Positions 46,359-56,443 of a DNA stretch of 64,000 nt are shown here, piece after piece. The notes under the pieces are model-generated. The model did not search any database. It was not told the DNA's origin and saw nothing but the letters and a program-made list of their open reading frames with translations. Source of the DNA: Nitrospiraceae bacterium (GTDB lineage: Bacteria; Nitrospirota; Nitrospiria; Nitrospirales; Nitrospiraceae); assembly GCA_013140715.1 (NCBI GenBank), contig JABFSG010000032.1:1-64000 (forward strand), written 5' to 3'. Within the stretch, counting starts at the first letter, position 1, and each line of letters begins with the position of its first letter. The translations under genes and the position numbers were made by a program.

Positions 46359-46679
46359 ATGGCGGATCGTAGGTTAGGTCTATTGTTATCCACACCCCCG
46401 TCACACCCGAGTGTTGAGACGGTCGTCCAGTTGGCATTGGCTGCTTTACGACAAGGTGTTGAAGTTTATATCTATCTGATTGATGGGGGGGTAAGAGTAG
46501 CTACGGATCCGCGCTACCTTGGTTTAATGGATAGTGGAGTAAAGATGTCTGTCTGTGCCTACGGCTGTCAGCAGCACGGTATTCCGACTGTTTCAATCGA
46601 TTCGAGAGCCTCCCTGTCCGGACTTGTCGTACTGTCTGGGATTATTGATGGCTGTGACCGCTTTCTAGCTTTTACATAA
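46359..46679 (+). CDS. DsrE/TusD-like sulfurtransferase subunit
   Basis: A 106-residue DsrE-fold protein, first of a trio. LGLLLSTPPSHPSVETVVQLALAALRQGVEVYIYLIDGGVRVATD is the family's first half; the second holds VKMSVCAYGCQQHGIP with Cys66 and Cys70, where TusD/DsrE carry the sulfur-accepting cysteine. The genes 46710 and 47074 supply DsrF/TusC-like and DsrH/TusB-like partners, so a heterohexameric sulfur-relay complex is likely. A perfect DnaA box lies inside this gene at 46386-46394. Confidence 0.75.
   Translation: MADRRLGLLLSTPPSHPSVETVVQLALAALRQGVEVYIYLIDGGVRVATDPRYLGLMDSGVKMSVCAYGCQQHGIPTVSIDSRASLSGLVVLSGIIDGCDRFLAFT
46386..46394 (+). promoter_or_regulatory. Perfect DnaA box inside the DsrE-like gene
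   Basis: TTATCCACA is the consensus DnaA-binding nonamer. It lies about 1 kb before the predicted unwinding element and could be part of the origin region or coincidence. Confidence 0.4.
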
Positions 46680-46709
46680 CCTCATTATTGTCACTGCGGC
46701 TGATTGTCT

Positions 46710-47051
46710 ATGTCTAAACGCATCGCCGTGGTGATTTCTGGCGATCCCTCTGTTACAAGTCGCCCTGTTGAAGCGCTTCGAATCGCACTCGGTCTTTACG
46801 CTGGAGATCATGACACTACTGTCGTCCTCTTAGGACGTACTCCCTCCCTCTTGATGGAAGACACAGAAGAGATAGTCGATGTCGACATTCTTGAAAAATA
46901 TCTTCCTTCCTTTCAACATTTAGCCATCCCTTTCGTCGTCGAGCCTGGAACGAGGATAGATACATTGTCTGACAGTTTTTCCGTGAAAGTTCTCCCTGTA
47001 GATGAAATACGTCAGTTAATTAGATCTGTTGATAGAAGTCTCGTTTTCTGA
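46710..47051 (+). CDS. DsrF/TusC-like protein
   Basis: A 113-residue protein starting at the ATG at 46710 (30 bp after the previous stop). The pattern KRIAVVISGDPSVTSRPVEALRIALGLYAGDHDTTVVLLG matches the DsrE/F fold of TusC-like subunits. LPVDEIRQLIRSVDRSLVF closes the domain. No catalytic cysteine is seen, as expected for TusC. It is the middle gene of the trio. Confidence 0.65.
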   Translation: MSKRIAVVISGDPSVTSRPVEALRIALGLYAGDHDTTVVLLGRTPSLLMEDTEEIVDVDILEKYLPSFQHLAIPFVVEPGTRIDTLSDSFSVKVLPVDEIRQLIRSVDRSLVF

Positions 47052-47073
47052 GATATCAATCAGTCCTGTATTT

Positions 47074-47316
47074 ATGAGCGCAACTCTCTACCTGCTTCGA
47101 CAACCGGCAAACCATCTCTCTCCCTCGCTCTTTCGAGTGAGCGATAAAGATATGGACGTCGTCTTTATGGAACATCCGGCTTCAATTATCCTCTCTTCTA
47201 TGAGGGGAGCTATTCAAACCGATGGAGAACCAGTGGCTGCTGATTCTCAACAGGTATTGACATACGACGACCTTGTTGAAAAAATTTTTGAAGCCGATCA
47301 CATCATTGTCCTCTAG
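47074..47316 (+). CDS. DsrH/TusB-like protein
   Basis: An 80-residue protein starting at the ATG at 47074 (22 bp after the DsrF-like stop). ATLYLLRQPANHLSPSLFRV, PASIILSSMRGAI and QVLTYDDLVEKIFEADHIIVL correspond to the small TusB/DsrH subunit (YDxLVxxIFxxDxVIVW ending). The conserved cysteine of DsrH is missing. It is the last gene before the origin region. Confidence 0.65.
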   Translation: MSATLYLLRQPANHLSPSLFRVSDKDMDVVFMEHPASIILSSMRGAIQTDGEPVAADSQQVLTYDDLVEKIFEADHIIVL

Positions 47317-47369
47317 GCTTATCAGAGGTTTCTTCTCTTAGTTAATTTTGCAATAAAGAAAGATCGTCG

Positions 47370-47390
47370 TAGGAGTAGGAATAGGAGTAG
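47370..47390 (+). promoter_or_regulatory. DnaA-trio-like element
   Basis: Seven consecutive triplets with a middle A: TAG, GAG, TAG, GAA, TAG, GAG, TAG. They lie 4 bp before two back-to-back DnaA boxes and next to an AT-rich stretch. DnaA-trios are 5'-TAG/TAA-like triplets on the strand leading into the box, as here. Confidence 0.6.
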
Positions 47391-47394
47391 GTTC

Positions 47395-47412
47395 AGTGGA
47401 TAGTGTGTATAG
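47395..47412 (-). promoter_or_regulatory. Two back-to-back DnaA boxes
   Basis: AGTGGATAG (47395-47403) and TGTGTATAG (47404-47412) read as CTATCCACT and CTATACACA on the minus strand, seven and eight of nine matches to TTATNCACA. They are oriented so that the trios lie on the correct side. Confidence 0.55.
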
Positions 47413-47539
47413 AAAGTAAATTATTGAATATTATGGATTCTTATTACGCTGTCCTTGTGGAGAAGATTGGGGGTTGACTCTGGGTAACCACTGCATGCAG
47501 AGTTCATAATCTGTGGCAATTGAGGTAAGTGATAGTCCC

Positions 47540-47602: not shown

Positions 47603-47634
47603 TTATCAACAGGTGTGAATAAGTCTGTGTATGA
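47603..47634. promoter_or_regulatory. Cluster of DnaA boxes at the dnaA start codon
   Basis: TTATCAACA (47603-47611, 8/9), TGTGAATAA (47614-47622, perfect TTATTCACA on the minus strand) and TGTGTATGA (47626-47634, 8/9, overlapping the ATG). This is a likely site for DnaA binding and autoregulation. Confidence 0.6.
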
Positions 47635-48995
47635 AGAGTAATGTAGAAATTATGACTATCCCAAGCGAATGGCAGAGTGCTTTGGCCTATATACAAGGGA
47701 AAGTTCCGAAGCAAGTCTACGATACCTGGTTTACGCCTATTCACCTTGAAAGGATCGAGGGGTCTACGGCTCAACTTGGTGTGCCAAATAAGTTTTTTGG
47801 CGACTGGTTAAGCCAACATTACGGTTCGCTCCTCGCAGAGGCTGTTTCTGCTACTCGAGGTGGAGAAGAGACCACTATCATGTTCGTTATTTCTCAAAAA
47901 CAGGCAAAGCAGGCCGAAAATAGTGTGAGCAGTGCGCCAACAAGTCGCCAAACTACAGGGGTCAGGCCGAAGCGGGGTATTCTGCTTAATCCAAAGTATT
48001 CATTCAAGAATTTCGTTGTAGGCGCAGGAAATCAATTTGCCCATGCCGCTTGCATGGCAGTCGCCGAGCAGCCGGCAAAAGCCTATAACCCATTATTCAT
48101 TTATGGTGAGACCGGACTGGGGAAAACCCATCTCTTGAATGCCATCGGGAATTATGTGGCTGAACGGACCGATCTCCGGATTGCCTATTTGACGACGGAG
48201 CAGTTTACCAATGAGGTCATCAACTCTATTCGATACGACAAGATGATGGATCTGCGGAAGCGGTATCGTCATATCGATATGTTGATGATCGACGATATTC
48301 AATTCTTAGCGGGTAAAGAGCGGACGCAGGAGGAATTCTTTCACACGTTCAACGCGCTCTATGAAGCGCATAAACAGCTTGTTTTGTCGAGCGATCGGTT
48401 TCCGAAAGACATGCCCGATATCGAGGAGCGGTTGAGATCGCGGTTTGAATGGGGCTTGATCGCCGATCTCCAGCCGCCGGACGTTGAAACACGAATTGCC
48501 ATCTTACGGAAAAAGTCCGAAGACGAAGGCGTCACGTTGCCGGAAGACGTCATCCAATTTCTTGCGACGACGATGAAAAGCAACATCCGCGAACTTGAGG
48601 GTTCGCTGGTGCGTCTTGGCGCCTATGCTTCGCTCACAGGCCAAACGATCACACTGGAGATGGCCAAGAATGTCCTCCGGGATTTGATCGGCAGCAAGAA
48701 AAAGATCGTGTCGATGGACGATATTCAGGAAACGGTGGGCGCGCGGTTCCACGTGAAGATCGCCGATCTGAAATCCCGTCGCCGAAGCAAGATGCTGGTG
48801 CATCCGAGACAGATTGCCATGTATCTCTGTCGGGAGCTCACGGATTCGTCCTATCCCGAAATCGGGCGTCAGTTCGGAGGCAAGGACCATACGACCATCA
48901 TCCATGCCTGCAAGCAGGTCATGAAAGCGAAAGACAGCGATAGTACATTGAGTGCCACATTGGACAGCTTGAGGGAGCAGATCCTACGAGCCTGA
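47631..48995 (+). CDS. dnaA: Chromosomal replication initiator DnaA
   Basis: A 454-residue initiator protein. It has N-terminal domain I (EWQSALAYIQGKVPKQVYDTWFTP), a short linker (to about 115), an AAA+ domain with Walker A GETGLGKT (159-166) and Walker B DMLMIDDIQFL, the arginine-finger region, and a C-terminal DNA-binding domain with the DnaA signature GGKDHTTIIHACKQV. The start at 47631 has no strong ribosome site; an alternative ATG lies eight codons downstream. The stop is 23 bp from dnaN. Confidence 0.97.
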   Translation: MKSNVEIMTIPSEWQSALAYIQGKVPKQVYDTWFTPIHLERIEGSTAQLGVPNKFFGDWLSQHYGSLLAEAVSATRGGEETTIMFVISQKQAKQAENSVSSAPTSRQTTGVRPKRGILLNPKYSFKNFVVGAGNQFAHAACMAVAEQPAKAYNPLFIYGETGLGKTHLLNAIGNYVAERTDLRIAYLTTEQFTNEVINSIRYDKMMDLRKRYRHIDMLMIDDIQFLAGKERTQEEFFHTFNALYEAHKQLVLSSDRFPKDMPDIEERLRSRFEWGLIADLQPPDVETRIAILRKKSEDEGVTLPEDVIQFLATTMKSNIRELEGSLVRLGAYASLTGQTITLEMAKNVLRDLIGSKKKIVSMDDIQETVGARFHVKIADLKSRRRSKMLVHPRQIAMYLCRELTDSSYPEIGRQFGGKDHTTIIHACKQVMKAKDSDSTLSATLDSLREQILRA

Positions 48996-56001: not shown

Positions 56002-56443
56002 GCTGCGCGAGGCGATCGCGGAGAAGCGGATCTTGAATGATTGTGACATGCGCCGATATTTCCGCGAGCAATGTTTCACTCGGTGGTGAAGCGGTCTCAC
56101 GAGAGGTTTCTGTCGAGGCGGGCAAGTAGCCGGCATCCGGCAACTCTCCAACCCGAAGTACGATGTCGGTTATGAGTTCCCCACCGGCCCCCCTGTCGAG
56201 TTTCTGGAGGAGGGTCGGTTTGAGGAAGGTGAGCTGGTGCAGCCAGACACTGTTGCGGACCAGGAGATAGAGCTTCTTAAAACGAATCTGGTCCGGCCAG
56301 GTGTTTGAGGCGATGGGTTCTCCGACGACAGCAACCCAGTCTCGCCGCAATCGGTTTTCGAGTAAGGTGGTTTCGAGACCCAAACGACGGGCCAACCCCT
56401 CGAGGACGTGGGAAACAGAATCGATGCGAGCAGGTCCGCGCAT
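55955..56443 (-). CDS. dciA: DciA-like (DUF721) protein
   Basis: A 162-residue protein of the DUF721/DciA family, thought to load the replicative helicase DnaB in bacteria without DnaC. The core is LEGLARRLGLETTLLENRLRRDWVAVVGEPIASNTWPDQIRFKKLYLLVRNSVWLHQLTFLKPTLLQKL. The C-terminal half is variable. The promoter-like TGCTATGAT lies 5 bp before the ATG, which has no ribosome site, so the message may be leaderless. The position near dnaA, dnaN and gyrBA supports the replication role. It overlaps the end of the 55402 gene. Confidence 0.75.
   Translation of the reverse strand: MRGPARIDSVSHVLEGLARRLGLETTLLENRLRRDWVAVVGEPIASNTWPDQIRFKKLYLLVRNSVWLHQLTFLKPTLLQKLDRGAGGELITDIVLRVGELPDAGYLPASTETSRETASPPSETLLAEISAHVTIIQDPLLRDRLAQLMAQVLTQPGGPKAG

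Follow-up and report, generated by a model that had tools for sequence, protein, structure and literature searches.

Where do the two strands of the chromosome part in this Nitrospira genome, and what might place a replicative helicase on each of them? The interval upstream of dnaA raises both questions. The window (the whole stretch of 64,000 nt that we analysed) has Nitrospira sp. CG24E as its closest named record (98% identity in DnaA), and its gene order is hisS, a DsrE-like gene with two small open reading frames, the trio element, dnaA, dnaN and two genes which we take, from their translations, to be gyrB and gyrA. The parts of the element and the initiator gene are:

47341..47363, no strand assigned: AT-rich stretch, the core expected to melt first (18 of 23 positions A/T by direct count, 78%)
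47364..47390, plus strand: putative DnaA-trio array TCG TCG TAG GAG TAG GAA TAG GAG TAG (direct reading, simulation, family conservation)
47391..47394, no strand assigned: spacer GTTC, 4 bp from trios to box (4 bp in most family members)
47395..47403, minus strand: trio-proximal DnaA box AGTGGATAG, minus-strand reading CTATCCACT (2 mismatches; family alignment columns 86–94 conserved)
47404..47412, minus strand: second tandem DnaA box TGTGTATAG, minus-strand reading CTATACACA (2 mismatches to TTATCCACA; columns 95–103 conserved)
47631..48995, plus strand: dnaA, the initiator gene (Bac_DnaA match; matches the B. subtilis DnaA-BUS structure 8btg)

The trio element sits at the chromosome origin. 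The assembly consists of 105 contigs, and skew was computed on the 139-kb contig only: the cumulative GC-skew minimum lies at 47134, 236 bp from the trio array. In a relative assembled as a single contig (G033), the sampled skew is negative throughout the 1.9 Mb leading up to dnaA and positive from that gene on. The skew minimum expected here in the preliminary description is thus found, on the contig and as a sign flip at dnaA in the relative. At ~85000–120000 of contig G000:C31 (L032, L033), some 40–70 kb to the right of the origin, GC skew returns to negative; the cause may be the orientation of the genes there, an inversion or a fault in the assembly. Three small genes (46359–47316) separate hisS from the origin: the first is DsrE-like (PF02635) and contains a perfect DnaA box, TTATCCACA, at 46386–46394, while the other two gave no Pfam match.

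The preliminary description had reported seven middle-A triplets between an AT-rich stretch and two tandem DnaA boxes upstream of dnaA, and all of these are in place, the seven (TAG GAG TAG GAA TAG GAG TAG) occupying 47370–47390. It had overlooked two in-register TCG TCG triplets (47364–47369), which lengthen the array leftwards. The B. subtilis orientation that it proposed is also right: the order of boxes, trios and AT-rich stretch, as well as the strand of the trios, are those of B. subtilis and of the Bacillota origins compared, and those described in PMC10201434 and PMC10316083. Seven consecutive NAN triplets lie on one strand, where at least three are asked for, and the boxes are situated 4 and 13 bp from the trios, under a rule that asks for a box with at most two mismatches within 16 bp and accepts a tandem partner. 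Both tandem boxes are weak, with two mismatches each to TGTGGATAA, which is a point against the basal unwinding system (BUS) reading. The published criterion is lax: it asks for at least three NAN triplets close to a box, and 18–19% of random strands pass it, so that run length and conservation have to carry the claim. A BUS with at least seven NAN triplets occurs in ~0.2% of simulated strands, and a seven-triplet [TG]A[GA] run is expected at ~1e-4 per simulated 314-bp intergenic region (Markov simulation); no second run of this sort occurs in the 64-kb window.

For conservation, the upstream regions of 30 and then of 40 further family members (70 in total) were aligned. The triplets, whose loss in close relatives would have told against the element, are kept in close and distant relatives alike, over ~70 family species. 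Counted from the boxes, the proximal four read TAG (A in 100%), GAG, TAR and GAG, with a middle A in 83–100%, and the distal four have either A or C in the middle (C in 29–63%) with G in third place in 94–96%. On the DnaA protein tree, 42.5 of the 52 steps at the distal middle positions are A–C exchanges, compared with a baseline share of 18% of A-involving changes in A-majority columns outside the array (p ~1e-22, the steps being treated as independent). Third positions vary chiefly between A and G, and first positions chiefly between G and T.

The B. subtilis structure shows DnaA capturing two bases of the triplet, the 3′ G and the middle A. Asn187 touches the amino group on the middle base, where C is accepted in place of A but G and T are not (PMC10721633). 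The equivalents of Asn187, Ile190, Ile193, Lys222 and Glu223 are invariant in the 70 species, bar one ambiguous residue; in 9 diverse members, the counterparts of Glu183, Arg202 and Glu228 do not vary either. With the G kept and the capture residues invariant, the A/C exchange gives an evolutionary pattern that matches the measured chemistry and, judged from the sequences, it is the evolutionary counterpart of the B. subtilis amino-group rule. Trio variation over ~70 species therefore amounts to a natural experiment which agrees with DnaA recognising the middle base (A or C) by its amino group, together with the adjacent purine, a rule previously proposed from the structure of one organism. 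In all 70 family members, Asp203 stands for B. subtilis Asn196, which contacts the uncaptured 5′ base; this may relate to G being tolerated as the uncaptured first base. At the first position, the proximal triplets switch regularly between G and T (GAG TAR GAG TAG; 47373–47390, alignment columns 70–81) in 86–96% of cases family-wide, a six-base periodicity of an uncaptured base that is unexplained by the capture of single trios.

Position, orientation, spacing, skew, conservation and the DnaA capture residues all agree with the reading advanced in the preliminary description, and the element is very probably a DnaA-trio BUS at oriC. The statement that trios are documented in only some phyla is outdated. 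They are predicted in 85% of 2070 surveyed species (PMC8287927), so that their presence in one more phylum is not itself news, and that survey may already include the right-hand trios of sequenced Nitrospira. Trio arrays upstream of dnaA also occur in many other Nitrospirota. No significant array was found upstream of dnaA in other lineages of the phylum (L103, L106, L111–L114 and L117–L125); their origin may lie elsewhere, or another motif may be used.

Between the trios and the start of dnaA, further boxes occur:

47456..47464, minus strand: DnaA-box-like site TTCTCCACA (TGTGGAGA conserved in the genus)
47603..47611, plus strand: DnaA box TTATCAACA, dnaA-proximal cluster (nearly invariant in the family)
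47614..47622, minus strand: DnaA box TTATTCACA, dnaA-proximal cluster (nearly invariant in the family)
47626..47634, minus strand: DnaA box TCATACACA, dnaA-proximal cluster, overlapping the dnaA start (nearly invariant in the family)

One could suppose that the strands open at this cluster (47603–47634), the trio element being accessory, since the best and nearly invariant boxes are found there. Only three-NAN runs lie nearby, of a kind frequent in random sequence, and the cluster overlaps the dnaA start codon, which suggests an autoregulatory or distal delivery site instead; we hold opening at the cluster to be improbable, and one box followed by two reversed ones likely serves autoregulation and/or distal DnaA delivery. 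Less credible still is that the right-hand triplets are a functionless TAGGAG hexamer repeat born of slippage. The TAGGAG unit does repeat in the window and in the relative L007, but other relatives hold the triplet register with different units at a fixed distance to the boxes, and the types of substitution are position-specific, a pattern of conservation by which slippage is refuted. The same interval includes a conserved block, TTGGGGGTTGACTCTG...CAGAGT (47467–47503), an imperfect inverted repeat of single genomic copy that is kept in most of the genus. It showed no conserved RNA fold and no Rfam match; the promoter of dnaA or the site of a regulator may lie here. Scans for Rfam families, promoters and terminators returned nothing useful.

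To the left of the AT-rich stretch, the family alignment revealed a second conserved block, CTTCTCYKA, overlooked in the preliminary description. Its minus-strand reading, T[A/C]R-GAG-AAG, follows the grammar of the trios:

47329..47340, minus strand: candidate mirrored trio set TAA GAG AAG AAA (direct reading; family-wide block; like arrays in other Nitrospirota)

The putative middle base of the block toggles between A and C in 9 of 12 steps (baseline 34% in T-majority columns; p ~0.005). Within the family, the set is two to four triplets long, and 8 of 38 members reach p ≤ 0.05 individually (median p 0.09). Outside the family, we applied a fixed scoring to Nitrospirota origins with a significant right-hand array, looking for a four-triplet array on the opposite strand 10–62 bp to the left. 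Such an array was significant in 14 of 33 origins; four other opposite-strand intervals taken as controls gave 0 or 1 of 32–34, and the same strand gave 1 of 33. In the set of sequences collected once the hypothesis had been formed, 11 of 23 were significant (Fisher 3e-9; 4e-8 with one per genus; 7e-5 with the first per family), and the same-strand controls in these sequences were not. Several Nitrospirota with a good right array carry no mirrored one. Where both arrays occur, the gap between them is mostly 15–27 bp and 63–100% AT, and no consistent DnaA boxes flank the mirrored set, which is therefore not a second BUS but at most a second trio set. We consider it likely, from these comparisons, that the mirrored set is a real DnaA-trio set in Nitrospirota.

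Opposed trios as a general bacterial feature were not supported: the same pipeline returned 2 of 60 origins from other phyla, mostly Bacillota. Single opposite-strand trio-like arrays were seen beside the BUS in L245 (Omnitrophota), L250 (Acidobacteriaceae) and L236 (Deferrisomatales), though most such arrays outside Nitrospirota fail the stricter pipeline. Some opposite-strand matches in Bacillota resemble the ribosome-binding site of dnaN. A ribosome-binding site or coding sequence was rejected as a reading of the mirrored array for most loci, since the upstream gene there is co-oriented and ends a short distance before the array. The upstream reading frame does pass through the array in L105 and L127, neither of which is among the significant loci.

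Two other accounts of the left block have to be weighed against a trio set. The triplets might be one arm of an inverted repeat, forming a hairpin or cruciform and not binding DnaA: in some members, good pairing is possible between the block and the purine tract that adjoins the trios on their left (e.g., CTTCTCTTA with TAAAGAGAAG in L055), and L109 has a near-perfect inverted repeat. Against this, mirrored arrays are equally similar to the right arrays of their own and of other species (8.63 versus 8.67 of 12). Moreover, when the left middle base becomes G on the plus strand, its putative partners do not turn to C, so there is no compensation, and the window itself holds no terminator-like stem. 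Pairing is largely refuted by these comparisons and we regard it as unlikely. Somewhat more room is left for a duplex site of another protein or regulator, unrelated to trios, above all in the window's own family, in which the block is short, strongly conserved and partly invariant (CT in 95–97%); even so, we think it rather doubtful, for the changes in the block follow the rules of the trios, including the A/C exchange, and outside the family its counterpart is a TAG/AAG triplet array of varying sequence.

A course of events can be proposed from these parts. By analogy with the B. subtilis mechanism, from which we infer strand unwinding here, DnaA would bind the tandem boxes at 47395–47412 and oligomerise along the plus strand; the filament would capture the G and the A or C of each triplet, and the duplex would open leftwards into the AT-rich stretch. 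If the left block is a trio set, the minus strand exposed beyond that stretch would offer its own short array, which DnaA could engage in mirror orientation. As the set has no consistent boxes, DnaA would need delivery from elsewhere, possibly from box clusters such as that at dnaA; in B. subtilis, distal boxes are thought to deliver DnaA by looping (PMC6669920). Lying on opposite strands, each filament would be directed into the AT-rich gap, and a pair of 5′-to-3′ helicases loaded in the gap would depart in opposite directions, giving bidirectional replication without DnaD. No DnaB_2 (PF07261) or DnaD-type domain was found in the genome, with B. subtilis and L. lactis controls giving matches, and the only candidate loader found lies 8.7 kb from the origin:

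56159..56419, minus strand: DciA domain (helicase operator)

A role of the mirrored trios in designating the second strand for the loading of a helicase is a tentative proposal. For the reading as a whole, in which two facing DnaA-trio sets, each on its own strand and separated by an AT-rich core, would place both replicative helicases of Nitrospirota independently of DnaD, we estimate a probability of about 0.4. If true, dual helicase loading would be solved by the origin DNA itself. The mirrored set is, in any event, a candidate open to experiment, in a genome where no DnaD-type loader was detected. Searching for opposed trios with A or C in the middle catches what the published NAN-plus-box scan would miss. 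In the literature searched, of which coverage was partial, we found no description of a family-wide A/C exchange or of mirrored, two-strand trio sets.

The closest known system is the B. subtilis BUS (PMC6669920, PMC10721633), which shares with the Nitrospira element the co-oriented pair of boxes, the short spacer, TAG-like triplets on the same strand, the AT-rich stretch beyond, the skew minimum and the DnaA capture residues. The B. subtilis BUS is located between dnaA and dnaN, whereas the Nitrospira element lies upstream of dnaA, has weaker boxes, T or G as first base and A or C in the distal middle positions, and adds, beyond the AT-rich stretch, a trio-like set on the other strand. For the second helicase, loading in B. 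subtilis is proposed to go through DnaD acting on the strand that faces the trios (PMC10201434). The DnaD recognition element (DRE) resembles our candidate in being a sequence opposite the trio strand, proposed to specify the second helicase; the DRE lies directly across from the trios, as their complement, and is read by DnaD, while the Nitrospira candidate is a separate array beyond the AT-rich stretch, in a genome where no protein of the DnaD/DnaB type was found and DciA is present instead. Thermotoga maritima, which is also an organism with DnaA and DciA, has repeated TAG triplets in its unwinding element that are needed for opening (eTrio/DnaA-trio, PMC10316083), but both of its motifs are on one strand, and no opposed set is described there. 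The E. coli KAK-boxes near DUE-R (PMC13220808) number only three copies, of untested importance, in an origin apart from dnaA; with K = T/G and a middle A, they have the same first-base alphabet as the TAG and GAG triplets of Nitrospira.
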